Shown here piece after piece: positions 1 to 44,542 of a DNA stretch of 64,000 bases. Made by a program: the position numbers and the translations under genes. Numbering within the stretch: the stretch's first letter is position 1; every line of letters begins with the position of its first letter. The notes under the pieces are model-generated. The model worked only from the letters and a program-made list of their open reading frames with translations. It was not told the DNA's origin and made no database searches. The stretch comes from [Clostridium] asparagiforme DSM 15981 (lineage in GTDB: Bacteria > Bacillota > Clostridia > Lachnospirales > Lachnospiraceae): contig CP102272.1 in assembly GCA_025149125.1 (NCBI GenBank), forward strand, positions 5,518,001-5,582,000, in the 5' to 3' direction.

Positions 1-1
1 C

Positions 2-406
2 GCTGGCATTAATGGCGAAGACGACGATAAGTACTATTTAGGCGGAAAGTTAGTCACGGCCGATAAGGAAGATAAATTCATGATCGCGTCTATTGACAGC
101 ACCGGTAATGTAGAAGCCGGATATGGTAATTCCGCAAGTAATTCTCTTCAGGTTAAAGCGAAAGATCTTATTAGCGATAACACTCTGTTTACTAAGGTGA
201 CAAGTACTACAGATCCTGATTACAAGAAGGATGCCCAGGTTTGGGTTGCTGTTAAGGATGCTAACGGCGATTATGTAACCGGTGATTTCCGAGTAGTTAA
301 TACTTCCGGTACTGTTTCCAAGAGTAAGAGTGTTAAAAATGGTAATGATTATAAGATTACTGTAGATAAGAATAAAGTGATCACCAAAATTGTACAGGAG
401 GATTAA
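2..406 (+). CDS. C-terminal end of a secreted cell-wall-binding repeat protein (5' part outside window)
   Basis: The frame is open from the first bases of the window and ends at TAA 404-406, so this is the last ~134 codons of a longer gene. The residues GINGEDDDKYYLGGKLVTAD match the region before the C-terminus of the three complete paralogs in this window (A 2557-4203, B 6300-7979, C 41793-43535). The end (VNTSGT, then a K/S-rich stretch, DYK and final VQED) matches their shared C-terminal signature. Family knowledge: these are surface proteins with aromatic repeats that bind wall polysaccharide. It is AT-rich like A and C. An IS110 remnant lies directly downstream and probably separates the gene from its own terminator at about 2013. 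The N-terminus and promoter cannot be seen. Confidence 0.85.
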   Translation, partial: AGINGEDDDKYYLGGKLVTADKEDKFMIASIDSTGNVEAGYGNSASNSLQVKAKDLISDNTLFTKVTSTTDPDYKKDAQVWVAVKDANGDYVTGDFRVVNTSGTVSKSKSVKNGNDYKITVDKNKVITKIVQED

Positions 407-715: not shown

Positions 716-1878
716 ATGAACGCAGTTGGCATTGATGTTTCTAAAGGTAAAAGTATGGTTGCTGCCCTCCGCCCGTTCGGCGAAATTGTTGCCAAACCAT
801 TTGAAGTTCCGCATACCTCCAGTGGTTTCCATCAGCTAGTTGATCAGCTCAGTTCTTTGGACGGCAGTACACGGATTATCATGGAGCATACAGGGCGGTA
901 TTATGAACCTATGGCCCGATGGCTCTCTGACTCTGGGTTCTTTGTCAGTACGGTTAATCCTAAGCTGATTAAGGATTACGGCAATAACACTCTCCGTAAA
1001 GTTAAAACAGATAAAGCTGATTCCGTTAAGATTGCGCGCTATGCTCTTGACAACTGGCAGGATTTGCGCCAGTATACCAGTATGGATATCATTCGCAATC
1101 AATTAAAAATCATGAATCACCAGTTCAGCTTCTACATGAAATAGAAAACCTCTTACAAGAATAACCTCATCTCCCTGCTGGATCAGACTTACCCTGGCAT
1201 TAATGACTTCTTTGACAGCCCTGCCCGCAGCGATGGCAGCCAGAAATGGGTAGACTTTGTTTCCTCATTCTGGCACGTGGACTGTGTGCGCTCTCTTGGG
1301 CTTGCTGCGTTTACTGAGCGCTATCAAAAATGGTGCAAACGGCACGGCTATAACTTCCAACCAGAAAAACCAGCACAGATTTATTCGTTTTCCAAAGAAC
1401 TGATTTCCGTGTTCACGAAAGACCCTGTGACTAAGTTTTTGGTTAAGCAGGCTGTGGAGCAGCTCAATACGGTATCTTTCACAGTGGAACAGCTCCGCCT
1501 GGAAATGAACCGTCTTGCTGCCCAACTGCCAGAGTATCAGGTAGTCATGGCCATGAAGGGGGTAGGCCCCTCACTCGGCCCTCAACTTATGGCCGAAATA
1601 TGCGATCTCTCTCGCTTTTCCCATCGTGAAGCATTAACTGCATTTGCCGGTGTGGACCCTGGAGTCAATCAATCCGGCACCTATGAGGCACGTAGTGTCC
1701 GTACATCCAAGCGAGGATCACCGCAGCTGCGCAAGACGCTGTTTATCGCTTTCTGGACAAGAAACGTTCAGAAGGGAAGCCGTACTATGTCTACATGACT
1801 GCCGGTGCCAATAAGTTCCTGCGAATCTACTATGGCCGTGTGAAGGAGTATTTAGCTGCCTTACCCAAACCAGAATAA
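716..1878 (+). pseudogene. IS110-family transposase, inactivated by a stop and a frameshifting deletion
   Basis: The N-terminal part shows the IS110 RuvC-like DEDD residues (GIDVSK, MEHTGRYYEP, KTDKADSVKIA). The C-terminal part shows the serine-containing transposase_20 region (FAGVDPGVNQSG, SKRGSPQLRKTLF). An in-frame TAG at 1142-1144 interrupts the reading frame, and the same frame resumes from 1145. Near 1740-1750 the frame shifts and about 20 residues expected in the family are missing; the true C-terminus (RFLDKKRSEGKPYYVYMTAG through LPKPE) continues in another frame to TAA 1876-1878. Two independent lesions make activity very unlikely. Confidence 0.85.
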
Positions 1879-2556: not shown

Positions 2557-4203
2557 TTAGTCCTCTAATACAACCTTTGTAATCTGACGCTTGCTAACGC
2601 TAAACTTGTAATCATCAGCATCCTTAGCATTAGTCTTATTCTTCAGAATAGTACCGGAGGTATTAACCAGATAATACTTAACGCTGTCCGTATTAGTTGT
2701 AGTAACAGTGTATACGGTTTCTTCCTTATCATCATCATGCTTACCACCATCGGTGCATGTAGCAATAAAGTCGGTCGTGGTCATCTCGGTTACAGAGTTA
2801 TTGGTCTTATCATACTTATAAACAGTGTACTTATCGTCCTTATCGGCCTTAACCTGTTTACCAGCCATGTACAGCTTATCATCATCTTCGCCAACTAAGC
2901 CGGAACCCTTCAGGTTGCTACCGGTCTTAAACTTAAAGGTGAAGGACTCGCCATCGATCGTTACAGTCTGCTTGCCAGTCTTCATAGCGCCATCATCAGA
3001 TCCACCAAAGTAGTAGCTTCTGATAGTATGATCGTTGATTTCCGTAGCAAAGTCTTTTACAAACTGATCAAAGTTATCCTCGGTATCATACGGATGAAGG
3101 TCATCATCATCAGCTAACTTATTCTGGATCTCGTTGCTGGTAGTACCATTAGCCATCTCCAAGAATACCAGTCCGCTGATCATTCTGCCATAGTTATCAA
3201 ACGCATATTTCTTGCCCTTGATGGTCTTGATTTCATTAGAGTAAATCTGGCCATCGCCATCGGCGTAGTACCAATACTCGCTTCCATCTTCGTACTTAGA
3301 CTTCTGCAGGTAATAACCAGGAACTACCTTAAACCATCCCTTAGTATAACGAGCTCCGTCCTCGGGATTGTTGAAATACATAAATGTATTACTGTAAGTA
3401 GCAGTACCCTGAGAAGCTACAGCAGCAGTAGCCTCTGTATACCAGGAAGCTACCATACGGCCAAACTCATCAAAGCCATACTTTTTACCATTAATGGTTT
3501 TGTCGGTGTAGCTCTCGCCGTCTTTAGCTGCTTTTTTCTTACCAGAAGCCTGGAAGAAGAACCAACGATCCTGATCTTCATCCCAGAACTCATCACCAGG
3601 CTGTGCATCCTCAGCTTCGTCATCAGTAATAGAAATCAGTCTCCAGCCTTCGGACATAGCGCCGTCATCTTCATCGCCAAAGTAGTACTGGCAGGTCTTC
3701 CAAGCATCATCATCAGTCTGACGCTCACCAGCATCTACCCAACCATACAGCATTCTGCCATCTGTATCAAAAGCATACTTTTTGCCATTGATGGTTTTAG
3801 CGGAAATAGATGTATCAGAAGCGCTGTCAGATCTCTTGTAAGCTTTACCATTAGCCTGGAAATAGTACCAATAGTGATCAGGCTCATCATCCTCACCAGC
3901 GTCTTCGTTCTCAATCGCTACCCACTGATTGGAAACCATGGCGCCGTTCTCGTTTACATAATAATAGTTGTCGTCATCCTCAACCAGGGTGTCAACAGCC
4001 ATCTCGCCGTTGTCATCTAACCAATACCAGTTGTCCCCAGATTTCTTCCAGGACTCGGTAACCTTGTCGCCATTCTTGTCATAATAAACCCAAGTCCCAT
4101 CTTCCTCAGCCCAACCCTGAGCCGCAAAAGAGGTCATGGATGCACCAATGGCGAGCAGTGCTGCTGTGGATAATACAGCAACTAATTTTGTCTGCTTTCT
4201 CAT
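2557..4203 (-). CDS. Surface protein A: secreted cell-wall-binding repeat protein, predicted expressed copy
   Basis: 548 aa. Residues 1-28 form a signal peptide (MRKQTK, hydrophobic core, cleavage near SFAAQG). The rest is made of aromatic wall-binding-type repeats (GTWVYYD, NWYWLDDNGEMA, YYYVNENGAMV, YWYYFQANGKAY), very rich in Asp/Glu, with recurring INGKKYAFD and FGDEDDGAM units. The end is the family signature VNTSG...DYKFSV...ITKVVLED. No catalytic domain is recognised; a structural or adhesive surface role is inferred. RBS AAGGAG precedes the ATG by 8 nt. It is the only one of the three complete paralogs with both -35 and -10 boxes. Its leader and first 131 coding bases are identical to gene C 37 kb away, and the leader is 95% identical to gene B. 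The gene faces away from uxaB and B. Confidence 0.9.
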   Translation of the reverse strand: MRKQTKLVAVLSTAALLAIGASMTSFAAQGWAEEDGTWVYYDKNGDKVTESWKKSGDNWYWLDDNGEMAVDTLVEDDDNYYYVNENGAMVSNQWVAIENEDAGEDDEPDHYWYYFQANGKAYKRSDSASDTSISAKTINGKKYAFDTDGRMLYGWVDAGERQTDDDAWKTCQYYFGDEDDGAMSEGWRLISITDDEAEDAQPGDEFWDEDQDRWFFFQASGKKKAAKDGESYTDKTINGKKYGFDEFGRMVASWYTEATAAVASQGTATYSNTFMYFNNPEDGARYTKGWFKVVPGYYLQKSKYEDGSEYWYYADGDGQIYSNEIKTIKGKKYAFDNYGRMISGLVFLEMANGTTSNEIQNKLADDDDLHPYDTEDNFDQFVKDFATEINDHTIRSYYFGGSDDGAMKTGKQTVTIDGESFTFKFKTGSNLKGSGLVGEDDDKLYMAGKQVKADKDDKYTVYKYDKTNNSVTEMTTTDFIATCTDGGKHDDDKEETVYTVTTTNTDSVKYYLVNTSGTILKNKTNAKDADDYKFSVSKRQITKVVLED

Positions 4204-4290
4204 AATTAATGCACTCTCCTTTTTCTTTTTGAAATACTTTTTGAAATTCCTAATTGCATTACGAGTTGATTATACTTCCAATAAGGGAAA
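4073..4290 (-). repeat. Shared 5' cassette, copy A (promoter spacer to codon 44)
   Basis: These 218 bp (87 nt leader plus 131 nt coding) are identical to 41706-41923 of gene C in opposite orientation. The 87-nt leader differs from gene B (6213-6299) at four positions. The cassette contains the -10 box, a dyad TTTCC-N6-GGAAG in the promoter spacer, the motif GCAATTAGGAATTTC and the RBS. It forms an inverted repeat with copy B. Confidence 0.9.
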
Positions 4291-4297
4291 TTATCAA
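4269..4297 (-). promoter_or_regulatory. Promoter of gene A (complete: -35 TTGATA, -10 TATAAT)
   Basis: On the minus strand TTGATA (4292-4297) and TATAAT (4269-4274) are separated by 17 bp. The -10 and most of the spacer lie inside the block shared with B and C. The -35 lies at its outer border, and the equivalent positions in B and C read TCTATA and CTCATA. A is therefore predicted to be the transcribed copy. Confidence 0.75.
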
Positions 4298-4589
4298 TAG
4301 TTTTTTTGCATTTTTTGTATTTTCTACTAAAATACTTAAAATATGACAATTTATATTGGAGGCATACCACCAACTCCATCACACGCATTTAGTATATAAT
4401 AGTCCGGCCTAAAATACCATAACATTTACCTGTGCATTTTCTTACATAATTATTACAGAAGTGTTATTTTTATCGCAAATTGTACAGATATTAGTACAAT
4501 CTTCCATATCCATCCATGCAACCTGACGATAGCTTTCGGGACGCCCCCTGAGATGGGGATTCAGACGACAAAGTCTGTGCTTGTATTGC

Positions 4590-4622
4590 GGAAAGGGCAG
4601 CGCCAAATGCGCTGCCCTTTCC
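4590..4622 (-). terminator. Terminator hairpin downstream of uxaB
   Basis: A perfect 14-bp stem GGAAAGGGCAGCGC (4590-4603) and GCGCTGCCCTTTCC (4609-4622) has a 5-nt loop. It lies ~80 nt after the uxaB stop. No T-run follows, but the stem is very stable. The remainder of 4298-4701 holds no credible gene. Confidence 0.6.
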
Positions 4623-4701
4623 GGATCTATCTCACTCGATATACTCATGTTTCCCCTGGAATGATCTGGTGTTTACGCCTCCGCGATGAGAGGCGTAAGT
4701 C

Positions 4702-6042
4702 CTATTTGGCCAGAACTTCCTTGTAGGCATCGGCCATTCCCTTGGCCTGGATCAGGTCATAGTATTCCTGGACCATGGGAATCATTTCGCTTAAGTCGGC
4801 ATGCCAGTAATCTTCTCTCTTCAGGATCTCCTCGACGGATGCATCCTTCATGAACTTCATGATCTCCTCGCCGTCGTTGGCTTTGTCGGTGCGGTAGAAG
4901 GAAATGAGGGCGGCCATGGAGAAGGTAAGGCCGGCCGGGTATTTGCCGAATTTTTCTTTGTACTCCAAAATGGTGGGCAGCACGCGGACCTGGAATTTGC
5001 TCACGGAGTTCAGCGCGATGCTTAACAGCTGATGCTTGATAAACGGGTTGGAGAAACGCTCCAGCACGGCAGCGCCGAACTTGCGGTTGTCCTCGGTGTC
5101 GCCGATGGTGGGGATGATCTCCTCAAAGATGCACTTTTTCAGGAAGGAGCTTACGGTCTCGTCCTGCATGCACTCGCCTACGGTGGTCAGGCCGTACAGA
5201 TGGGCGCCCAGTACCATGGAGGTGTGGCCTCCGTTCAGAATGCGTACCTTTCTCTTCTTATAAGGATGCACGTCGTCGGTCCATACGACGTTGTAGCCGG
5301 CCTTCTGGAAGGGCAGCTCGTCCTCGTGATGGCCGCCGATTACCCACAGGTGGAAGATCTCTGCGGTGTCAACCAGCTTGTCTTCGTAGCCGATCTGTTT
5401 GGTCAGCTCCTCTACCTCGTCTCTGGGATAGCCGGTTACGATGCGGTCCACCAGGGTGCTGCAGAAGTCATTTTCGGTCTCGATCCAGTTCTTGAAGCCG
5501 TCCTCCAGCTCCCACAGATCGGCGTACTGGAGCACGCATTTCTTTAAGTTGTCGCCGTTGTCGTCGATCAGCTCGCAGGGAAGCAGGATCAGACCCTTTA
5601 AACCGGCCTGGTAGCGCTTGTACAGGAACTGGCACAGCTTGGCGGGATATGCCTTGGGCGGCATGTCGGTGAGTTTCTCAGTGCCTACATACTCGATGCC
5701 CGCCTCGGTGGTGTTGGAGACCAGAACCCGCAGATCGGGGTTGGATGCCAGGGCAATGTACTCGTCGTACTGGGTGTAGGGATTCAGTGCACGGGAAATG
5801 GACGTCACATGGGTGTGCTCGTTTACAACCTGACCATTGTCAATACCGCGCAGGAACAGGTTGTACTCACAGTTCTGCTCCGCCAGGGTCTGGCACATAC
5901 CTTTCTCGATGGGCTGCACTACTACGATCTTGCCGTCGTAAAGGCCCTTCTCCTGAAGTTTGTGGAAGAAATAGTCCACAAAACCGCGTAAAAATCCGCC
6001 CTCGCCAAACTGGATGACTGTTTCTTTTACGTTGCTGCTCAT
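4702..6042 (-). CDS. uxaB: Tagaturonate reductase (altronate oxidoreductase)
   Basis: 446 aa, mannitol-dehydrogenase superfamily. It reduces D-tagaturonate to D-altronate with NADH in the isomerase route of galacturonate breakdown. Visible features are an N-terminal Rossmann segment (IQFGEGGFLRGF, residues 10-21), NTTEAGIE, the uxaB-typical LLPCELIDDNGDNLKK, and the family signature KVRILNGGHTSM near residue 265. It is somewhat shorter than the ~480-aa enterobacterial enzyme. RBS GGAGGT precedes ATG 6042. It has its own promoter and LacI/cre-type operator and its own terminator. It is therefore a self-contained unit enclosed by the divergent surface genes A and B, far from the rest of the pectin locus at 23-41 kb. 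Its product would use galacturonate released by that locus. Confidence 0.92.
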   Translation of the reverse strand: MSSNVKETVIQFGEGGFLRGFVDYFFHKLQEKGLYDGKIVVVQPIEKGMCQTLAEQNCEYNLFLRGIDNGQVVNEHTHVTSISRALNPYTQYDEYIALASNPDLRVLVSNTTEAGIEYVGTEKLTDMPPKAYPAKLCQFLYKRYQAGLKGLILLPCELIDDNGDNLKKCVLQYADLWELEDGFKNWIETENDFCSTLVDRIVTGYPRDEVEELTKQIGYEDKLVDTAEIFHLWVIGGHHEDELPFQKAGYNVVWTDDVHPYKKRKVRILNGGHTSMVLGAHLYGLTTVGECMQDETVSSFLKKCIFEEIIPTIGDTEDNRKFGAAVLERFSNPFIKHQLLSIALNSVSKFQVRVLPTILEYKEKFGKYPAGLTFSMAALISFYRTDKANDGEEIMKFMKDASVEEILKREDYWHADLSEMIPMVQEYYDLIQAKGMADAYKEVLAK

Positions 6043-6081
6043 GATTTGCTACCTCCATATGAAATAGTGTGAGTGACTACT

Positions 6082-6095
6082 TGTAAGCGCTTACA
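6082..6095 (-). promoter_or_regulatory. Perfect palindromic LacI/CcpA-type operator upstream of uxaB
   Basis: TGTAAGCGCTTACA is a perfect palindrome and fits the cre consensus TGWAARCGYTWNCW. It lies ~35-40 nt downstream of the uxaB -10, where a bound repressor would block elongation. The binding protein could be CcpA or a LacI-family uronate regulator; the LacI regulator at 23053-24042 is one candidate. Confidence 0.75.
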
Positions 6096-6135
6096 CTATT
6101 GGGTGCACTGCGCTTTCCTTTTATTTGCTGAGATT

Positions 6136-6164
6136 ACTATACAACATTCTCCGGAAATATTCAA
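6136..6164 (-). promoter_or_regulatory. uxaB promoter
   Basis: On the minus strand -35 TTGAAT (6159-6164) and -10 TATAGT (6136-6141) are separated by 17 bp, ~95 nt upstream of the uxaB start, with the operator at 6082-6095 in between. Confidence 0.65.
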
Positions 6165-6205
6165 TAGGTTTCGGAGAAAAATTGTAAGCATTTACATTGC
6201 TGGTG

Positions 6206-6234
6206 TCTATAATTTCCCGTATCGGAAGTATAAT
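6206..6234 (+). promoter_or_regulatory. Incomplete promoter of gene B (-10 only)
   Basis: TATAAT at 6229-6234 is inside the shared leader. At 17-bp spacing the -35 position (6206-6211) reads TCTATA, a poor match. A second TATAAT at 6208-6213 has no good -35 either. B is therefore predicted silent or weak in this orientation. Confidence 0.55.
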
Positions 6235-6326
6235 CAACTCGTAATGCAATTAGGAATTTCAAAAAGTATTTTAAAAAGAAAAAGGAGAGTGCATTTATTA
6301 TGAGAAAGCAGACAAAATTAGTTGCC
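6213..6326 (+). repeat. Shared 5' cassette, copy B
   Basis: The 87-nt leader 6213-6299 matches copies A and C with four mismatches and no indels, and the first 26 coding bases are identical. Beyond that the codons differ mostly at synonymous third positions (about ten in the first 30 codons). The noncoding leader is thus better conserved than silent coding sites. It is inverted relative to copy A, with 6.2 kb and 4.2 kb copies flanking uxaB. Confidence 0.9.
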
Positions 6327-7979
6327 GTCTTATCTACGGCAGCACTGCTGGCCATCGGCGCATCCATGACTTCCTTCGCGGCTCAGGGTTGGGCTGAGGA
6401 GGACGGAACCTGGGTTTATTATGACAGCAGCAATGACAGAGTGACCGAAGAGTGGAAGAAATCCGGGGATAACTGGTATTGGCTGGACGACAACGGCGAG
6501 ATGGCGGTTGATATGCTGGTTGAGGATGACGACGATTACTATTACGTTGACGCCAACGGTGTGATGGTCACCAATCAGTGGGTTGCCATTGAAAATGAGG
6601 ACGCCGGCGAGGAGGATGAGCCGGATCACTACTGGTATTATTTCCAGGCCAACGGCAAGGCCTACACCAGATCCGACAATGCCAGCGAGGACTCCGTTTC
6701 CGCCAAGACCATTAACGGCAAAAAGTATGCCTTTGACGAGGAAGGCAGAATGCTGTACGGATGGGTAAGCGGCGGCGAGCGCCAGACCGATGACGATGCC
6801 TGGAAAGAGAGCCTTTACTACTTTGGCGATGAGGACGACGGCGCTATGAGCTTAGGCTGGAGACAGATCTCCATCGTGGACGATGAATACGAGGATCTGC
6901 AGCCCGGCGACGAATATTGGGACGAGGATCAGGACCGCTGGTTCTATTTCCAGACTTCCGGCAAGAAGGTAGCTGCGGATTCCGATGACGGCGACACCTT
7001 AAAGACCAAGACCATCAACGGCAGAAAATACGGCTTCGACGAGTATGGCCGTATGATCGCCGACTGGTTCACGGAGACCGCCTCCTACAGCACCGCAACT
7101 CAGGGCGTTGCCTCCTATACCAGCAGCTTTATGTATTTCAGCACTCCTGAGGACGGCGCCCGCGCCACCAAGGGTTGGTTCAAGGTTGTTCCCGGCTATT
7201 ACCTGCACGAGGACAAATACAACGACGGGGACGATTACTGGTATTATGCAGACGGCGACGGCGAGATTTACTCCAACGTAATCAAGACCATCAAGGGCAA
7301 AAAGTACGCATTCGACAACTACGGCCGTATGATTGACGGTCTGGTATTCCTGCAGATGGCGACTGAGAACGGCAAGGTGGATTCCTCCGAAATCGCTCAG
7401 AAGTTTGCTGACGACGGCGATATCCCCTACGATACCGAGGATGCGTTCGACGATTTTGTGGTTCACTACGCTCCCCAGATTTCCAGCGGCGAGATCCGCT
7501 CCTTCTACTTCGGCGACTCGGATGACGGCGCCATGAAGACCGGCAGACAGACGGTTGAGATTGACGGCGACTCCTTTACCTTCAAGTTCAAGGACAGCAG
7601 CAGCAGTAAGGGCGCCGGTATCAACGGAATCGACGACCACAAGCTGTACAGCGCCGGCAAGCTGATCGAGGCCGACAGCGACGATAAGTATCAGGTGGTG
7701 ATTTACAGCGAGGACGAGGACGGCATCGTGACCATGGAGAAGATGGATACCGATGATTTCCTCACCGAGTATTGCCACGAGCTGGAAGCGGGCGACAAGG
7801 ATTACGACGAGGACGCCACGACCTGGAATGTGAATGACGATATTGACTCCAGCGTTAAGCTTTATCTGGTAAATACCTCCGGTTCCATGGTTAAGAATAA
7901 ATCTGCTGCCAAGGACGGCGAGGACTACAAGTTCAATGTGAAGAACTACCAGATCACTCAGGTTGTTTTAGAAGACTAA
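6300..7979 (+). CDS. Surface protein B: secreted cell-wall-binding repeat protein, predicted silent copy
   Basis: 559 aa with the same plan as A: identical signal peptide (ending SFAAQG), acidic aromatic repeats (GTWVYYD, NWYWLDDNGEMA, YYYVDANGVMV, YWYYFQANGKAY), INGKKYAFD and FGDEDDGAM units, and the C-terminal VNTSG...DYKFNV...ITQVVLED. RBS AAGGAG precedes the start. The codons are distinctly more GC-rich than in A and C although the protein is close, so B has a different recent history or has adapted to the local base composition. Two tandem tyrosine recombinase genes follow on the same strand. No enzymatic domain is seen; a variable surface-layer or adhesin role is inferred. Confidence 0.9.
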   Translation: MRKQTKLVAVLSTAALLAIGASMTSFAAQGWAEEDGTWVYYDSSNDRVTEEWKKSGDNWYWLDDNGEMAVDMLVEDDDDYYYVDANGVMVTNQWVAIENEDAGEEDEPDHYWYYFQANGKAYTRSDNASEDSVSAKTINGKKYAFDEEGRMLYGWVSGGERQTDDDAWKESLYYFGDEDDGAMSLGWRQISIVDDEYEDLQPGDEYWDEDQDRWFYFQTSGKKVAADSDDGDTLKTKTINGRKYGFDEYGRMIADWFTETASYSTATQGVASYTSSFMYFSTPEDGARATKGWFKVVPGYYLHEDKYNDGDDYWYYADGDGEIYSNVIKTIKGKKYAFDNYGRMIDGLVFLQMATENGKVDSSEIAQKFADDGDIPYDTEDAFDDFVVHYAPQISSGEIRSFYFGDSDDGAMKTGRQTVEIDGDSFTFKFKDSSSSKGAGINGIDDHKLYSAGKLIEADSDDKYQVVIYSEDEDGIVTMEKMDTDDFLTEYCHELEAGDKDYDEDATTWNVNDDIDSSVKLYLVNTSGSMVKNKSAAKDGEDYKFNVKNYQITQVVLED

Positions 7980-8018
7980 TCATCCATTGACATAAGAAAA
8001 TTCCAAATTGCGACAAAA

Positions 8019-8050
8019 CTGCCCGGCGATATACTGCGCCGGGCAGACCT
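8019..8050 (+). terminator. Terminator of gene B
   Basis: CTGCCCGGCG (8019-8028) pairs perfectly with CGCCGGGCAG (8037-8046), ~40 nt after the B stop codon. The T-tract is poor (ACCTCAGATTTT). It is preceded by GAAAATTCCAAATTGC (7996-8011), the B version of the flanking inverted motif. Confidence 0.6.
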
Positions 8051-8107
8051 CAGATTTTCCAGGGCTGCTGTGCCGTAAAAAGCACAGCGGCCTTTTCTTC
8101 AACGCGA

Positions 8108-8219
8108 AGGGCCACCGGCGCAGCCTGTGGCCCTTTATTGAGCGCAATGGCCGCCGGATTAACCTGCCGGCCATGATTGAACGCAATGGGCCGCTGGCGC
8201 AGCCGGCGGCCCATGTTTT
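8108..8219. repeat. Array of three GC-rich hairpins between gene B and the recombinases
   Basis: Three consecutive inverted repeats are visible: GGGCCAC...GTGGCCC, GGCCGCCGG...CTGCCGGCC, and GGGCCGCTGGC-GCA-GCCGGCGGCCC (8188-8212) followed by ATGTTTT. The units are separated by near-identical spacers (ATTGAGCGCAATGG and ATTGAACGCAATGG). The last resembles the hairpin at 19312-19336. They may act as terminators isolating the recombinase genes. Confidence 0.6.
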
Positions 8220-8326
8220 AACCAGTCTCTGTAAAGTTTATGTAAAATTTTCGTGGCAATAATGTGGCACTTTCCCGGTTTGCGCGAGAGAATTCCGACA
8301 ATATAGTGAATTTTTTGTGAACCATA

Positions 8327-8357
8327 TTGACATTTCGTGGTTTTATAATGTTATACT
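8327..8357 (+). promoter_or_regulatory. Candidate promoter of the recombinase pair
   Basis: TTGACA (8327-8332) is followed by TTATAC/TATACT (8351-8357) at 18-19 bp, ~36 nt upstream of the recombinase start. The RBS GGAAGGAGG lies at about 8374-8382. Confidence 0.5.
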
Positions 8358-8392
8358 GGCTCGTAAATACAACCGGAAGGAGGTAATGCACT

Positions 8393-9226
8393 ATGCCGGC
8401 AATCCAGCCAGCGGCTGCCATGGTCAAACGAGGCTTCGACGCCTATCTGTCAGCCCACAACCTGGCCCCCAACACCATTCACATTTACCATTTTACGGTG
8501 GAACAGTATCTGCACTGCTACCCCCGCCTGACCTACCGCAATCTGCAGCTTTACAAAATTTATCTCATAGAGCACTATAAACCTCAAACCGTCAACCTGC
8601 GGATCCGGGCGCTCAACTCTTATCTTGAATACTGCAAAGCAGACATTTGTCCGCTTTCGATGGTAAAGGTACAGCAAAAAACATATTTGGACAAGATTAT
8701 AACCCAAGCCGACTATGAATACTTGAAACGCAGGCTGTGGGAGGATGAGGAATACAGCTACTTCTACCTGGTGTGGCTGACCGCGGCCACCGGCGTGCGG
8801 GTCAGCGAACTGGTTACGTTTTGCGTCGAGGACATAAAGCTCGGGCACAAGGACGTCTATTCCAAAGGAAATAAGATGCGGCGGGTTTACGTTCCAACCC
8901 GCTTAAAATGCGCAATCCTGACCTGGCTTGAACAGGAACACCGCACCACAGGCCCTCTCTTTCTGAACCGCTATGGTTCCGCCCTGTCCGTCACCGGAGT
9001 CCGCTCGCGGCTGAAAGATTTCGCCGCACGGTATAATCTGGATCCTGAGGTTATGTACCCTCACTCCTTCCGCCACCGTTTTGCCAAAAATTTTATTGAG
9101 CATTCAGGGGATATCTCGCTGCTGTCTGATCTTCTGGGACATGAAAGCCTGGAAACCACACGGATTTATCTGCGGCGAAGCAGCACGGAACAGGCCCGGA
9201 TTGTCAATCAGGTTGTAAACTGGTAG
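8393..9226 (+). CDS. Tyrosine recombinase 1 (XerC/D-like)
   Basis: 277 aa, a typical length for stand-alone Xer-type recombinases. An N-terminal SAM-like core-binding domain (~1-95) is followed by the catalytic domain with Arg136 (GVRVSEL), His224 and Arg227 (HSFRHRF), His250 (LLGHES) and the nucleophile Tyr259 (TTRIYL). All catalytic residues are present, so it should be active. It lies directly downstream of surface gene B, ten bases before a second recombinase gene. It is closer to the recombinase next to gene C (FAKNFIE, LSDLLGH, YLRR..STEQA shared) than to its tandem neighbour. There are no phage genes or tRNA nearby. Inferred role: DNA inversion at the shared leaders of the surface genes. 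Confidence 0.92.
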   Translation: MPAIQPAAAMVKRGFDAYLSAHNLAPNTIHIYHFTVEQYLHCYPRLTYRNLQLYKIYLIEHYKPQTVNLRIRALNSYLEYCKADICPLSMVKVQQKTYLDKIITQADYEYLKRRLWEDEEYSYFYLVWLTAATGVRVSELVTFCVEDIKLGHKDVYSKGNKMRRVYVPTRLKCAILTWLEQEHRTTGPLFLNRYGSALSVTGVRSRLKDFAARYNLDPEVMYPHSFRHRFAKNFIEHSGDISLLSDLLGHESLETTRIYLRRSSTEQARIVNQVVNW

Positions 9227-9236
9227 GAGTGATGCG

Positions 9237-10094
9237 ATGGAATACTATGATCTGAACGCAGGGGCAGAGCAGCGCCTGGAGTATTTTAAAGAACGGCTCA
9301 GACAGCGCGGAGCCTCCGCAAACACGATTAATACCTACGCCCGTTCACTGTGGCTCTACGAGTCCCTGTACGGCAATCTGAGCCTGGAATCTCTGAATGA
9401 TTACCGGAATTACCTGATCGCCCATTACAAGCCGTCCACGGCCAATTCACGCATTTACGGAATGAATCAATACCTGAAGCTCCTGGAGCAGAACGGCGCG
9501 GAAATACCGGCCGGCTATCAGCTGGCTGCCGTCAAATTGCAGCACAGGCCCTTTCTGGACAATGTGATCTCCCAGCGGGATTACGAGCGCCTTAAACGGG
9601 GGCTTAAGGAGGATCATAACGTCTTCTGGTATTTTGTGGTCCATTTTCTGGGGAGCACGGGCGCGCGGATCAGCGAGCTGCTCCAGATCAAGGCGGAACA
9701 CATCCGCATGGGGTATATGGATCTGTACTCAAAGGGCGGAAAGGTCCGCCGGGTTTATTTTCCGGAAGCGCTGTGCCGGGACGCGCTGGACTGGCTGGAG
9801 ACGAGAGGGCTTCAGACCGGCTTTGTGTTTACCAACCGAAACGGCGCTCCGTTTACCGCACGCGGAATCAGCTCGCAGTTAAAGGTGCTGGCCAGGCGTT
9901 ACCGGATCAACCCGGATACCGTCTACCCGCACTCGTTCCGGCATCGGTTCGCAAAGAATTTTTTGTCCAGATTTAACGATATTGCGCTGCTGGCGGATCT
10001 GATGGGGCATGACAGCATTGAGACTACACGGATTTATTTGACGCGGTCCTCGAACGAGCAGCGGGCGATAATTGATGAGATTGTTACGTGGTGA
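9237..10094 (+). CDS. Tyrosine recombinase 2 (XerC/D-like)
   Basis: 285 aa. Core-binding N-terminal domain, then catalytic residues Arg144 (GARISEL), His232/Arg235 (HSFRHRF), His258 (LMGHDS) and Tyr267 (TTRIYL). RBS TAGGAG lies 7 nt before ATG, and it starts 10 nt after recombinase 1, so the pair is cotranscribed. Tandem Xer-type pairs can act as heterotetramers, as XerC/XerD do; that this pair does so is inference. A strong terminator follows at 10110-10150. Confidence 0.92.
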   Translation: MEYYDLNAGAEQRLEYFKERLRQRGASANTINTYARSLWLYESLYGNLSLESLNDYRNYLIAHYKPSTANSRIYGMNQYLKLLEQNGAEIPAGYQLAAVKLQHRPFLDNVISQRDYERLKRGLKEDHNVFWYFVVHFLGSTGARISELLQIKAEHIRMGYMDLYSKGGKVRRVYFPEALCRDALDWLETRGLQTGFVFTNRNGAPFTARGISSQLKVLARRYRINPDTVYPHSFRHRFAKNFLSRFNDIALLADLMGHDSIETTRIYLTRSSNEQRAIIDEIVTW

Positions 10095-28866: not shown

Positions 28867-30815
28867 CGAGTAGGAGGGAGTGATTAACTCCCGTCCTCTC
28901 ACACCACCGTGCGTACCGTTCGGTACACGGCGGTTTCAATAGTTGACATGCACGGACTGATAGGCAGTAGCTAAATCATAAAAGCCACTGTTTATCAGTC
29001 TTTTTTGTGTTAATGCTCTGTTGACCGCTCCCATTCCCGTTACATACCAGTATTTCCTGCGGCTGTTTGCCGCCTGATGTGCAAAATATTCAGGTATTCC
29101 GAGTTTTATAAGATTTCTTTTCCTTGTTTTGGGTAACTTCCATTGTTTCCATATGCACATTCGAATACGGTGATACAGCCATGAGTTTAGTTCGTCTATC
29201 CTGTTCTTCATATCCGCAATCCCATAATAATTCAGCCATCCACGCATGAATACTTTTATCTTTTCCAATGAAGGACGTATACTCTGACAAGACCTTCGGG
29301 AACTGAGCTCTTTCAGTTTTGTCTTCATCTTCTTCCATGACTTCCCATGAACCCGGACATATATGCCCTTCCCGTTCTTTCCCAATGTGAAGCCAAGAAA
29401 CTTAAAATTTCGGATTGCAAACACACTTACTACACGACTTTTCTTTTGATTCACTTTCAGTTTCAGTGTTTTCTCCAGATATTTCGTGCTGGATTCCAGT
29501 AATCTCTTTGCGGCTCTCTCACTTTTAGCTAACAGCACAATATCGTCTGCGTAGCGTACAAATGCCACTCCCCGCTTCTCAAACTCCTGGTCGAACTCGT
29601 TCAGATAGATATTGGCCAGCAGGGGTGAGATGTTTCCGCCCTGCGGCGATCCTTCTTCGGTTTCCATGACTACACCGTTTTCCATGACACCACTCTTTAA
29701 GTATCTCTTAATCCACTGGATTACCCTTTCGTCCTTTACATTCCTTCGCAAGATATTCAGGAGCATTTCGTGGTTAAGTGTATCAAAGTATTTCGACAGG
29801 TCTAATGTCACTGCATGGGTATATCCCTGTTCTGCATACTCCTTCACTTTCAGAATGGCGGCTTTTGCGCTTATCCCCGGTCGATAGCCATAGCTGTTTT
29901 CCGAGAATAGCGGCTCATAGACCGGCATGAGCTGTTGTGTTATGGCTTGCTGGAAAATACGGTCTTTGACTGTTGGAATACCAAGCTTTCGTATTCCACC
30001 GTCTGGTTTTGGGATTTCCACTCGTCTTACCGGGTCGGGAGTATATTTCCCCCTTTTAATTCTCCCGATAAGCTCTTTCTGGGTCTTCCGAAGGTAGGCT
30101 CCGGCTTCCTCCACGGTCATTCCATCGATTCCCGGTGCTCCCTTGTTTGCCTTTACTCTCTTGAACGCTCTGTTCAGGTTGTCCTTATCCAGTATCTTCT
30201 CTAAGAGCTCCGGTTGTGCACTGTCCCGTTCCTTCCATATCCGACGGAAAGAACGGTGCGCTCTCACATACCCTTCACGTTCCGCGCTATCTCTTTGCGA
30301 GCAGCTTTCTCTGTTTTCTGCACCCAATGTTCTTTCCTCCTTTCCCGGTTGTACTAAGGACTCCTATTGATTCGGTCCTTTGCCTCTCGGCTACTATGAC
30401 CTCGGCTGACTTCTGTACGTTCAGCATTATCTCACGATAATGGTTATCCCTTTCAGGACATATCGTACAGACCTCCCCGGGGTGCAAAGCATCCAGTGGA
30501 TGCTTGTTCTGCACGGACCGAAGCGGAGCGAAGACACACACGTTTCTTTCTCTCCATCTATCTGCCACATTTACCATACATGATTCCGTGTAGTTATTGG
30601 GCTTCAACTTGTGATGCAGTCTTACCCTCATGCATAGCCTGATGTGATTTCTGTTCGTCAGACCAGAGATTTGCCCATGGGTTAGTATGTTCCCCATATC
30701 CGGCTTCCTTCAGATTCCACCTCACGATGGACACCCTTGCCTTCGGCTATATCCTTCCCACTACCGGGCGGATTCCGGACTTGCACCGGTTAGAAACGTG
30801 CGCCGCCGGGCACAC
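28867..30815 (-). mobile_element. Group II intron with its maturase, inserted after a transcription terminator
   Basis: On the minus strand the 5' end reads GTGTGCCCGGC (from 30815). The 3' part has a domain V-like hairpin (GTGTACCGAACGGTACGC...) followed by GGTGTGAGAGGACGGG and ends ...CTCCTACTCGAT near 28867. The maturase ORF lies in domain IV. The 5' flank is the terminator hairpin of the GH28 gene plus TTTTCGAT. Insertion after a terminator is typical of group IIC introns. The exact 3' boundary is uncertain by a few bases. Confidence 0.85.
28936..30327 (-). CDS. ltrA: Group II intron reverse transcriptase/maturase
   Basis: 463 aa. RT domains include GIDGMTVEEAGAYL, RKLGIPTVKDRIFQQAI, YGYRPGISAKAAI, TLDLSKYFDTLNHEML, EEGSPQGGNISPLLANIYL and the catalytic FVRYADDIVLL. 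A maturase X domain (VFMRGWLNYYGIADM) follows, and no HNH endonuclease domain is visible at the C-terminus. It splices the intron RNA and primes its retrohoming. The reading frame is intact, so the intron may be active. Confidence 0.95.
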   Translation of the reverse strand: MGAENRESCSQRDSAEREGYVRAHRSFRRIWKERDSAQPELLEKILDKDNLNRAFKRVKANKGAPGIDGMTVEEAGAYLRKTQKELIGRIKRGKYTPDPVRRVEIPKPDGGIRKLGIPTVKDRIFQQAITQQLMPVYEPLFSENSYGYRPGISAKAAILKVKEYAEQGYTHAVTLDLSKYFDTLNHEMLLNILRRNVKDERVIQWIKRYLKSGVMENGVVMETEEGSPQGGNISPLLANIYLNEFDQEFEKRGVAFVRYADDIVLLAKSERAAKRLLESSTKYLEKTLKLKVNQKKSRVVSVFAIRNFKFLGFTLGKNGKGIYVRVHGKSWKKMKTKLKELSSRRSCQSIRPSLEKIKVFMRGWLNYYGIADMKNRIDELNSWLYHRIRMCIWKQWKLPKTRKRNLIKLGIPEYFAHQAANSRRKYWYVTGMGAVNRALTQKRLINSGFYDLATAYQSVHVNY

Positions 30816-41468: not shown

Positions 41469-41668
41469 TATGATAATACATGTAAAGCAAAGAAAGCTTT
41501 TTCATACTCATATCGGACGGGTAAAACCGTCCGACCCCCCTATCAACATTTTCTTTTTTACAAACTATAATATACCTACCATTCCCACGCAGGCGCTGAG
41601 CCTGCGAAAGAAAGAGATAAAGGCGAGCAATGACGTGATCCCACACGGCAAGCCTTTGTCTCTTTTTT
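41469..41668 (+). ncRNA. Candidate small RNA, family member 2
   Basis: A -10-like TATGATAAT at 41469-41477 precedes the core at 41493-41542: GCTTTTTCATACTCATATCGG, a perfect hairpin (CGGACGG/CCGTCCG), then ACCCCCCTAT. The single-stranded parts match member 1 (19198-19252), while the hairpin sequence differs and keeps pairing. Further hairpins GCAGGC/GCCTGC (41590-41605) and a terminator AGAGATAAAGGC/GCCTTTGTCTCT with a T6 tail (41612-41668) end the RNA just before gene C. No ORF fits. Confidence 0.55.
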
Positions 41669-41698: not shown

Positions 41699-41727
41699 CT
41701 CATACTTTCCCTTATTGGAAGTATAAT
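41699..41727 (+). promoter_or_regulatory. Incomplete promoter of gene C (-10 only)
   Basis: TATAAT at 41722-41727 lies in the shared leader. At 17 bp the -35 position reads CTCATA (41699-41704), a poor match. An upstream terminator at 41612-41668 blocks read-through, so C is predicted silent. Confidence 0.55.
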
Positions 41728-41923
41728 CAACTCGTAATGCAATTAGGAATTTCAAAAAGTATTTCAAAAAGAAAAAGGAGAGTGCATTAATTATGAGAAA
41801 GCAGACAAAATTAGTTGCTGTATTATCCACAGCAGCACTGCTCGCCATTGGTGCATCCATGACCTCTTTTGCGGCTCAGGGTTGGGCTGAGGAAGATGGG
41901 ACTTGGGTTTATTATGACAAGAA
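41706..41923 (+). repeat. Shared 5' cassette, copy C
   Basis: 218 bp identical to copy A (4073-4290, inverted). Identity starts in the promoter spacer and ends inside codon 44, after which A and C diverge clearly. This sharp boundary suggests recent recombination or conversion between A and C. Confidence 0.92.
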
Positions 41924-43535
41924 CGGCGACAGAGTAGAGAGCGAGTGGAAGAAATCCGGAACCAACTGGTATTGGTTGGACGACAACGGCGAGATGGCTG
42001 TGGATATGCTGGTTGAGGATGATGATGACTACTACTACGTAGATGTCAACGGTGTTATGGCGACCAACCAGTGGGTAGCGATTGAGAATGAAGATGCCGG
42101 AGAGGAAGATGAGCCGGAGCATTGGTGGTATTATTTTGGTGCCAACGGAAAAGCCTATAAGCGGAGTGATAACGCCACCGGCGATGTGTCTCTGAAGATT
42201 ATCAATGGTAAAAAATATACGTTTGATGATGAAGGTAAGATGCAGTTCGGCTGGGTAAAAGATGGCGTGCGTCAGACTGATGATGAGGCTTGGTCAGAGT
42301 GTGATTACTATTTCGGCGATGAAGATGACGGCGCTATGGCCACTGGCTGGAGACTGATCAGCATTACGGATAGCAACTACGAGTCCGATCAGCCGGATCC
42401 GCTTGGCGACACTTGGGATGAAGATCAGGACCGTTACTTCTGGTTTAAACCCTCCGGCAAAAAACAGACTGATAAGACAAATAAGACCATTGATGGCCAC
42501 AAATATGGATTTGACGAGGATGGCCGTATGATCGCCTCCTGGTATACAACTGCTACAACCTCGAAAGCCAAGGCCACTTCTCCTGTTGCTGCCGGTACAG
42601 AAATGATACAGGGTGCGACTGACTACACCAAAGAATTCCTGTACTTTAACAGTCCGGAAAGCGGCGCTCGTTACACGAAAGAATGGTTTAAGGTTGTACC
42701 CGGTTATTATCTGCAGCAGGGCAAATACGATGACGGGGATGAGTATTGGTACTACGCCGATGGAAATGGTAACCTGTATGCGAATGAAATCCGGACGATC
42801 AAGGGCAAAAAGTATGCCTTTGATGAATATGGCCGCAATATTACCGGCTTAGCGTTCCTGAGCTTTACCGGCGATGACGAATCCGTCAATATCGAGATGA
42901 AATTTGCGGATGATGCTAAGAAGCCGGATTCCTCGAAGTCTTTGGAGGACAACAAAAAGGCTGCGACAACCGGTGCTTATGATACCGAGGACGCATTCGA
43001 TGAATTTGTAAATGAATATAAAGGGGAAATTGCTGACGGAACTCTCAGATGCTACTACTTCGGCGATGACGGCGCCATGAGAACCGGCACTCAGACCGTA
43101 AACATTGACGGAGATTCCTTTACATTCAAATTCAATAAATCCGGAGCTCTGAAAGGTGCCGGCTATGTTGGTGTCGATGATAAGAAGCTGTACATGGCAG
43201 GCAAACAGGTAAAGGCTGATAAAGATGACAAGTACAGCATCTATAAAGTAAGCTTCCAGGATGGTAAAGCAATCGCTGTAGAAAAAATCGATACTCCCAA
43301 ATTCTTGAGGGAGCGGGTTGATGACGAGAGCTTTATCAGAACCACAAATAGCGACGGCGACGTAACCTGGACCCGCGCTGAAGATGCGAAGCTTGATACC
43401 GCTACCACAAAATACTACTTAGTCGGAAGCAACGGCACCATTGCCAAGGGCAAGAGCTCTGCCAAGGACGGAAATGACTATAAGTTCTCCGTCAACAGCT
43501 CTTACGAGATCACCAAGGTAGTTCTGGAAAACTAA
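41793..43535 (+). CDS. Surface protein C: secreted cell-wall-binding repeat protein, predicted silent copy
   Basis: 580 aa. Signal peptide and first repeat identical to A; then acidic aromatic repeats (NWYWLDDNGEMA, YYYVDVNGVMA, HWWYYFGANGKAY), INGKKYTFD and FGDEDDGAM units. The tail is YLVGSNGT...DYKFSV...ITKVVLEN. It carries an insertion relative to A and B around residues 250-275 (Thr/Ala/Lys-rich). AT-rich like A. RBS AAGGAG. A tyrosine recombinase gene follows on the same strand, as with B. Confidence 0.9.
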   Translation: MRKQTKLVAVLSTAALLAIGASMTSFAAQGWAEEDGTWVYYDKNGDRVESEWKKSGTNWYWLDDNGEMAVDMLVEDDDDYYYVDVNGVMATNQWVAIENEDAGEEDEPEHWWYYFGANGKAYKRSDNATGDVSLKIINGKKYTFDDEGKMQFGWVKDGVRQTDDEAWSECDYYFGDEDDGAMATGWRLISITDSNYESDQPDPLGDTWDEDQDRYFWFKPSGKKQTDKTNKTIDGHKYGFDEDGRMIASWYTTATTSKAKATSPVAAGTEMIQGATDYTKEFLYFNSPESGARYTKEWFKVVPGYYLQQGKYDDGDEYWYYADGNGNLYANEIRTIKGKKYAFDEYGRNITGLAFLSFTGDDESVNIEMKFADDAKKPDSSKSLEDNKKAATTGAYDTEDAFDEFVNEYKGEIADGTLRCYYFGDDGAMRTGTQTVNIDGDSFTFKFNKSGALKGAGYVGVDDKKLYMAGKQVKADKDDKYSIYKVSFQDGKAIAVEKIDTPKFLRERVDDESFIRTTNSDGDVTWTRAEDAKLDTATTKYYLVGSNGTIAKGKSSAKDGNDYKFSVNSSYEITKVVLEN

Positions 43536-43675: not shown

Positions 43676-44542
43676 ATGGGCATGTCCTCCTCTAATCCCC
43701 CTCCCGCCTCCATCCTCCCACAGGGAAACCTGGAAGCGCTGCTGGGAACCTTCCTCCGGTACATGACCGCGAAAAATCTGTCAGGTAATACCATTTTGTC
43801 CTACGTCTATGGTGTTAAAACCTTTTTCTCCCGCTACCCTGAGCTGGATCAGAATAACGTAAGCCTTTACAAAGTCTACCTGATGGAACGCTACCGCCCC
43901 CAGACCGTCAACATGCGCATCCGGGCGCTGAACTGTTTTCTGAAATCACAAGATATCCACGACTATAAAATCCCCTCCGTCCGCCTCCAGCAAAAATCCT
44001 TCATCGACCACGTCATCAGCCAGGCGGACTATGAGTATCTGAAAAACAGGCTGTGGGAGGATGAGCAGTACACCTTCTATTTTATTGTGCGCTTCATCGC
44101 CGCCACCGGTGTGCGGGTCAGCGAGCTGGTGGCACTGGTTTTGCCGGACGTGCAGGTGGGTTACCGGGACCTCTACTCCAAGGGAAATAAGACCCGGCGG
44201 ATTTACATCCCCTCCTCCCTCCAAAAAATGTGCCTGGACTGGCTGGCGGCGGAGGGACGGCGAGACGGCCCTCTTTTTATCAGCCGCCTTGGCCGCCCCA
44301 TGACCGTTTCCGGAATCCGCAAACAGCTTAAAACCTTTGCCATCCGGTATCACCTGGACCCGGAAGTCATGTATCCCCACTCCTTCCGCCACCGCTTCGC
44401 CAAAAATTTTATCGAAAACGGCGGCGATATTGCATTTCTCTCAGACCTTCTTGGGCATGATAGCATAGAGACCACCCACATTTACCTGCGGCGGACCAGT
44501 ACGGAGCAGGCTATTCTTTTCAACCGGGTCGTAGACTGGTGA
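43676..44542 (+). CDS. Tyrosine recombinase 3 (XerC/D-like)
   Basis: 288 aa. Core-binding domain ~25-110; catalytic Arg147 (GVRVSEL), His235/Arg238 (HSFRHRF), the LLGHDS His, and Tyr270 (TTHIYL). RBS AAGGAG. Closely related to recombinase 1 (shared FAKNFIE, LSDLLGHDSIETT, STEQA). 140 nt downstream of surface gene C, an arrangement repeated at B. Intact, so likely active. Confidence 0.92.
   Translation: MGMSSSNPPPASILPQGNLEALLGTFLRYMTAKNLSGNTILSYVYGVKTFFSRYPELDQNNVSLYKVYLMERYRPQTVNMRIRALNCFLKSQDIHDYKIPSVRLQQKSFIDHVISQADYEYLKNRLWEDEQYTFYFIVRFIAATGVRVSELVALVLPDVQVGYRDLYSKGNKTRRIYIPSSLQKMCLDWLAAEGRRDGPLFISRLGRPMTVSGIRKQLKTFAIRYHLDPEVMYPHSFRHRFAKNFIENGGDIAFLSDLLGHDSIETTHIYLRRTSTEQAILFNRVVDW

Follow-up and report, generated by a model that had tools for sequence, protein, structure and literature searches.

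The leader family and its single complete promoter

The window analysed here, a stretch of 64,000 nucleotides, corresponds to positions 5,518,001-5,582,000 of the single 6.35-Mb contig of [Clostridium] asparagiforme DSM 15981, a member of Lachnospiraceae whose genus is placed as Enterocloster. It carries three genes for surface proteins (A, B, and C) that share one leader, together with genes for Xer-like tyrosine recombinases (Table 1), and we examine this family as a candidate switch in which a single promoter is passed from one surface gene to another. A preliminary description of this DNA had listed A, B, and C as complete paralogs sharing a leader with the −10 hexamer TATAAT. All three are intact open reading frames (ORFs), and a search of the whole genome with the leader raised the total to six strong copies (E-values from 8e-66 to 7e-47, the next best match having E 0.2), a result that is far from chance. 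The six copies all lie inside 57 kb, in the order D (+), E (−), F (+), A (−), B (+), and C (+) along the genome; the leaders of D, E, and F are located just outside the window, the D gene is intact (581 amino acids, aa), and the genes of E and F are broken. The A, B, and C proteins have pairwise identities of 65-72%, and in these surface proteins the first 120 residues are nearly invariant and the C-terminal half is variable. Choline-binding repeats of PF19127 were found in all three at 55-58 bits (Pfam gathering cut-off 27), and repeats of PF01473 in A and B. By eye, no lipobox cysteine is present at the signal sequence of the surface proteins, and the products are not lipoproteins.

Only one of the six copies is joined to a complete promoter. 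The hexamer located 17 bp before the −10 reads TTGATA at A, TCTATA at B, CTCATA at C (for these three as described earlier), and CTAATA at D, while E and F carry TCAATA at 18 bp; the five copies other than A thus have only 3/6 matches to TTGACA, and a TG before the −10 was seen by eye in none of the six. In a promoter consensus scan A scores 11/12, and nothing was listed that spans the sites of B and C. The scan did return a 10/12 match at 41543-41571, upstream of C and ahead of a strong terminator-like hairpin, which likely insulates C. About 130 bp upstream of site C (window 41494-41623), holding this promoter-like site and the start of the hairpin, is 81-82% conserved at the matching place in other Enterocloster genomes; it may represent a small RNA or be nothing more than a terminator, and an Rfam search of it gave no family at E below 0.9.

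The block shared by the copies begins between the −35 and the −10, at a short imperfect palindrome. Between A and C the letters agree without a mismatch over the 16 bases ahead of the −10 and over 202 bases counted from its start, and the 16 bases plus the 71 non-coding ones that follow are the 87-nt leader, starting inside the spacer, of the preliminary description. The identical runs of A and D extend for 20 bases before and 151 bases from the −10 start; the exact runs of B are shorter (5 and 43), yet B aligns throughout. Upstream of about −20 the six flanks are mutually dissimilar, apart from one 45-bp match of E and F among the matches listed, in which the A and B flanks also appear as the two ends of one segment and the E and F flanks likewise.

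Table 1. Features of the window, with positions counted from its first nucleotide.
Feature	Position	Strand	Remarks
3' end of broken copy F	1..406	+	F leader 1.4 kb outside the window
Surface protein A	2557..4203	−	intact ORF, 548 aa; signal peptide, choline-binding-type repeats; joined to the active promoter
Shared leader of A	4204..4274	−	−10 to start codon
Sole complete promoter (A)	4269..4297	−	−35 TTGATA 4292-4297, 17 bp spacer, −10 TATAAT 4269-4274
Putative crossover site A, ATAATTTCCCTTATTGGAAG	4275..4294	−	between −35 and −10; right arm reaches into the −10
A-rich stretch directly upstream of −35	4298..4320	−	conserved at the active copy in other species; presumably UP-element-like
Tagaturonate-reductase-type (UxaB-like) gene	4702..6042	−	between the inverted A and B sites; NF002969 562 bits, cut-off 359
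Putative crossover site B, ATAATTTCCCGTATCGGAAG	6209..6228	+	without −35
Shared leader of B	6229..6299	+	
Surface protein B	6300..7979	+	intact ORF, 559 aa; presumably silent
Xer-like tyrosine recombinase, first of pair, after B	8393..9226	+	intact
Xer-like tyrosine recombinase, second of pair, after B	9237..10094	+	intact
Strong terminator-like hairpin	41608..41668	+	17-pair stem, T-tract; ~35-50 nt upstream of site C
Putative crossover site C, ATACTTTCCCTTATTGGAAG	41702..41721	+	without −35
Shared leader of C	41722..41792	+	
Surface protein C	41793..43535	+	intact ORF, 580 aa; presumably silent
Xer-like tyrosine recombinase beside C	43676..44542	+	intact

One −35 hexamer per genome and a gene exchange between congeners

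Relatives were sought in a sample of 397 genomes of the family (denoted here by G numbers), of which 64 match the leader at E ≤1e-3. As leader-bearing we counted the 23 genomes below 1e-22, a cut of our own, in which the match includes the site region; the other 41 were set aside. From 83 site rows, seven were dropped for want of a recognisable GAAGTATAAT, three of these coming from G127, and in one of the 76 rows kept, from G007, an assembly gap precedes the site. Three class assignments should be read with their definitions: G001, which has a second leader match without a site, is classed as single-copy; G127 is multi-copy by its leader matches, only one of which was kept as a readable site; and the 49 sites called silent include the TTGCTA copies of G268 and G384. 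Within the genus, 14 of 17 genomes have the leader and the three that lack it are 77-86% complete; in a class sample it occurs in 2/341 genomes at E ≤1e-8, both Lachnospiraceae. Two exact-match scans of viral contigs gave no match to the leader.

The arrangement seen in the window recurs in these relatives. Among the 21 genomes with at least two readable sites, exactly one TTGATA copy is found in 20, none in one (G064), and two in zero; when the labels were shuffled over 62 sites, none of 200,000 shuffles avoided a genome with two such copies. An A-rich upstream stretch before TATTGATAATTT tends to be common to the active copies and absent from the silent ones, and the single-copy genomes G268 and G384 have TTGCTA behind a similar A-rich stretch and were counted as not TTGATA. 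Most silent copies keep TATAAT and the core of the putative site. The linked gene is intact at 19/19 active and 32/38 silent sites, with all six broken genes at silent sites, a count that leaves out 11 silent and 7 active sites too near the end of a stretch. Terminators were considered as general insulators of the silent copies and rejected in this role, there being no clear difference at −8 kcal/mol or below (15/49 silent vs. 5/26 active sites), although every one of the ten strongest (−19 or below) belongs to a silent site. In the draft genome G007, assembly gaps occur at two places (L110 1077-1507 and 10491-10614; C103 59077-59507 and 68491-68614), one in the region from the UxaB-like to the surface gene, the expected place of the active promoter, and one directly before a silent site, as repeats or mixed populations would give.

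The preliminary description had proposed looking in related genomes for the same −35 beside different paralogs, and this was borne out cleanly in one pair of congeners, G062 (a single contig) and G376 (50 contigs), the only two genomes sampled from their genus. An all-pairs comparison of sites whose upstream flanks agree at 70% or more also shows this exchange. The active flanks of the two genomes are 98-100% identical across 180 bp before the −10, identity of the active copies falls to 43-77% from 180 bases after it, and the active-linked genes have only 56% protein identity. The active gene of G062 is instead 93% identical to a silent gene of G376, and the active gene of G376 is 79% identical to a silent gene of G062, so that the exchange is reciprocal. 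In the former pair, the last 60 bp before the −10 (core included) have 73% identity, the four windows that precede them 43-55%, and the sequence after the −10 80-100%; in the reverse pair it is 48-67% before and 73-100% after. The switch point falls in the shared site and leader, where it is resolvable only to ~90 bp, and a marker in the 5' untranslated region, GCATTTTT (vs. GCATTAATT), follows the gene and not the promoter in the pair of the G062 active and G376 silent copies. A weaker case of exchange is locus C of G012 compared with G004 (upstream 91%, linked gene 73%, G004 active gene 79%); ~5.3 kb of flank at this locus is 95% identical to G003.

Recombinases, site orientation, and the mode of exchange

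Intact Xer-type recombinase genes, two beside B and one beside C, had been noted in the preliminary description, and all three belong to Phage_integrase (PF00589). Their best NCBIfam models are XerA, XerC, and XerD, all scoring under the curated cut-offs, and by eye they hold what we take to be the usual catalytic residues of tyrosine recombinases. A further pair near D brings the number of recombinase genes near the six copies to five, and the genome holds seven close relatives (44-100%) in all, these five (the pair at B, the single gene at C, and the pair near D) plus two more at 3.94 Mb. This last pair (L064 5355-7048; G000:C1:3941355-3943048) has no leader copy nearby and is adjoined by several similar-looking short ORFs. 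Among the 397 family genomes, relatives of the recombinase at E ≤1e-45 are found in 34, namely in 16/16 multi-copy, 2/7 single-copy (G001 and G384), and 16/374 other genomes (Fisher's test, p 0.0006 for multi- vs. single-copy and 1e-17 for leader-bearing genomes vs. the rest). At most six candidates were scored per genome, and all candidates for the single-copy genomes except G001; in G075, G187, G268, G336, and G377 the all-candidate search gave relatives of 29-30% or none. None of the eight genomes examined among the 41 left out (G088, G133, G193, G200, G259, G308, G310, and G391) has a recombinase at E ≤1e-45, and adding G200 and G310 changes the single-copy count from 2/7 to 2/9. A recombinase lies within 4.5 kb of 17/49 silent vs. 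2/26 active sites (p 0.012; the stretches end at contig ends), and at six silent sites (G035, G049, two in G064, G164, and G232) it is divergent and 162-268 bp upstream.

Of silent sites on the same fetched stretch as the active one, 20/23 are inverted relative to it (p 0.0005), which is the arrangement that loss-free inversion requires. Distances between active and silent sites range from 1.8 to 37 kb, and some site-to-site inversions would turn ribosomal-protein genes. The nearest inverted pair, A and B, encloses a metabolic gene, and its sites are separated by 1,955 bp; no flip of this segment was caught among G000, G002, G003, G004, G011, and G016, since the UxaB-like gene and rplL share direction in all six, the Enterocloster genomes in which both genes were seen. 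Two layouts recur. In the first, divergent sites flank a gene, either the UxaB-like one (A/B of the own genome, and G002) or an ATPase of PF01637 type (E/F of the own genome, with a similar-looking gene by eye in G062). The second consists of convergent cassettes and was found in G002, G007, G062, G164, and G243. In G002, a second secreted gene stands after each of four surface genes, the two tested being of choline-binding type, and similar DNA also trails the surface genes of other Enterocloster genomes among the matches listed.

In multi-copy genomes the 12-bp core is identical in 40/75 within-genome vs. 53/1816 between-genome pairs, and its TTAT-type centre is lost, by eye, in four of the seven single-copy genomes (G075, G268, G336, and G384). 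Two more distant single copies without recombinase, G310 and G200, retain TTGATA and a −10 (TATAAT and TATGAT) but have an unrelated core; the leader matches of G200 and G310 extend across the site region, with identities of 75 and 72%. Since these single-copy genomes lose the core yet retain the promoter elements, the comparison suggests that it is maintained for recombination rather than for transcription. Within the own genome, the core of B differs and those of E and F are one base longer, which suggests that the set now able to exchange consists of A, C, and D.

Taken as a whole, the locus is very probably a single-promoter, multi-gene switch of surface proteins by site-specific inversion, with crossing over within the promoter. 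One genomic place carries the A-rich upstream element and the −35, and every member of the family brings a −10, a leader, and a signal sequence of its own, preceded by a site of ~20 bp between −35 and −10. An Xer-like recombinase, often one of a pair encoded beside silent copies, would join two inverted sites, and inversion of the intervening DNA would pass the −35 to another gene while the old gene keeps the −10 alone. It is probable, with somewhat less confidence, that this antigen switch is widespread in gut Lachnospiraceae and that its often paired recombinases recombine within a sigma-70-type promoter, passing one −35/UP module among up to six −10/leader/surface-gene cassettes, with one coat protein on display at a time. 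The recombinases identified here would then be the catalysts, inversion would be reversible in living cells, silent copies would go untranscribed, and the outcome would be variation of the cell surface. The earlier proposal that recombination moves the active −35 between genes is supported, as far as comparison of genomes goes, by the G062/G376 exchange, by the 20/21 genomes, and by the association of recombinase with multiple copies (16/16 vs. 2/7).

Several observations weigh against this reading. There is a single clean exchange pair, and the remaining pairs are ambiguous, with distances too even to judge. G376 is a draft whose silent copy sits on a 5.9-kb contig, so a misjoin across the stretch of ~86 identical nucleotides (by eye) is possible, although the second half of the evidence comes from the end of a separate 84-kb contig; in both G062 and G376, the nearest recombinase relative was found ~48-58 kb from a site. 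Two close pairs, G003/G004 (95%) and G001/G010 (90%), kept the same active gene. G064 lacks a TTGATA copy and the sites of G127 have diverged. Cores are unequal within the own genome (CGTATC at B, one base longer at E and F), and together with the differing cores of G002 and G164 this may mean that some copies do not recombine. The gene tree needs five changes of activity label against a mean of 6.9 in shuffles, 32 of 500 of which were as low; the labels are thus partly clustered, and vertical inheritance of an ortholog at the active site was considered as a full account, which the tree does not decide. Repeated change of the active gene is compatible with the tree but not demanded by it. Finally, leaders are homogenised within genomes (median 98.6% vs. 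94.4% between Enterocloster genomes), which is more readily explained by homologous recombination than by exchange at the core. Over 56 cassettes from 30 genomes, the leader medians are 98.6% within and 87.7% between genomes, and those of the first 90 coding bases are 95.6 and 82.2%.

This homogenisation leads to the question of whether switching itself could use the near-identical leader and 5' end for homologous recombination of RecA type or for gene conversion, with the nearby recombinases serving otherwise. The sap locus of Campylobacter fetus or a vls-like route would be the model, exact shared runs of up to 218 bp (A-C) would offer the substrate, and the G062/G376 breakpoint, placed only within ~90 bp of site and leader, is consistent with it. 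We nevertheless hold this account to be unlikely: in the sites read upstream homology stops at the short core, the recombinase goes with multi-copy status, and the core has been lost in four of seven single-copy genomes, G310, and G200, where promoter elements and leader were kept. Site-specific exchange for switching and conversion that keeps the leaders alike may both act.

Less probable still is an ordinary paralog family in which one gene is expressed constitutively and the rest, whether relics or copies under separate regulation, take no part in switching now; the exchange between congeners would then be an old rearrangement. The two close pairs with the same active gene, the broken E and F genes, and the confinement of all six counted broken genes to silent sites fit this idea, but 32/38 readable silent copies are intact, most with TATAAT and core, and the rule of one −35 per genome holds in 20/21 genomes. 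That a mobile or integrating element such as a tyrosine-recombinase transposon accounts for the sites, with the surface genes carried by chance, is highly improbable, since only the left end is shared, the own-genome copies have no common right boundary among the matches listed, and all six are confined to 57 kb, even though recombinase pairs adjoin some cassettes, one pair at 3.94 Mb lacks a leader, and transposase and group II intron genes are nearby. A simple ON/OFF invertible promoter is not favoured either, as it is the leaders themselves, at spacings of 1.8-37 kb, that make up the inverted repeats observed; a short invertible promoter segment before one gene was not seen, the A/B pair being separated by 1,955 bp, in an analysis that included no search aimed at further short inverted repeats near the −35.

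Among the neighbouring features, two similar transposase genes, both divided into two ORFs and by eye of IS110 type, are located near E and F (window 716-1798 and L063 13886-14968), and group II intron parts (RF02001 and RF01998) on the minus strand at 30375-30731 of the window. Three silent sites of other genomes (L098 9969, G002 129969; L138 9707, G376 C15 144707; L136 1927, G062 879927) are directly divergent from genes that by eye resemble those for capsule or exopolysaccharide, and D in the own genome is likewise divergent from capsule-like genes, with a family-2 glycosyltransferase gene nearby. The choice of coat protein and that of capsule may thus be linked.

Significance and comparison with known switching systems

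If the reading is true, common gut Lachnospiraceae use one-at-a-time switching of the coat, a strategy studied mainly in mycoplasmas and a few pathogens, and this would bear on how these bacteria meet phages, antibodies, and neighbours. Antigenic variation in a commensal would also become directly testable with long reads, because the junctions are defined nearly to the base. A crossover inside the promoter is a tidy design in that the silent copy needs no shut-off, being without a −35. Among the matches listed from open-licence literature (titles and abstract starts), no account of such a system in Lachnospiraceae appeared, and no precedent for a promoter-splitting switch was found in the literature searched.

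The closest parallel is the Vpma locus of Mycoplasma agalactiae, in which one unique promoter and silent paralogs are present and inversion by Xer1 joins a silent gene to the promoter (PMC2268961). A figure legend places its putative recombination site at −1 to −72 relative to the start codon (PMC2268961, Fig. 5), which we take to lie downstream of the promoter. The preliminary description had called the present system Vsp/Vpma-like, and the likeness holds for its proposed mode of working. As in Vpma and in vsp of M. bovis, the active promoter is unique (judged by its sequence), the other paralogs are presumably silent, an Xer-family gene is in the locus, and the sites are inverted. The differences are the position of the site, which here is not downstream of the whole promoter but between −35 and −10, with silent copies keeping the −10, and the products, which are choline-binding-type secreted proteins and not lipoproteins. 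Moreover, the host belongs to Lachnospiraceae and not to mollicutes, the recombinase is often a pair, and the copies extend over 57 kb with other genes interspersed. The system therefore works like Vpma/Vsp but is not a member, as its site is inside the promoter and its products are not lipoproteins.

Two further comparisons help to place it. The sap paralogs of C. fetus, several of them silent, have conserved 5' ends and depend on a single promoter; their switching relies on long 5' homology with RecA involvement, and a promoter-splitting site is not known there. Switching of surface-layer proteins (SLP) in this species is mentioned in PMC5634654. The present family resembles sap in its one promoter, several presumably silent paralogs, and conserved 5' ends, and departs from it in the site that splits the promoter, where sap has the long homology and RecA. 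In cwpV of Clostridioides difficile and the invertible promoters of Bacteroides, the promoter region before one gene or operon flips ON or OFF. A genetic switch makes cwpV phase-variable (PMC2784873), and promoter inversion is also described for msa of Lactiplantibacillus plantarum (PMC8493755). All of these share with the system proposed here phase-variable surface proteins in gut bacteria; unlike in cwpV, msa, and Bacteroides, here one −35 would be shared out in a family, and the choice would be which gene is expressed, not whether one is.

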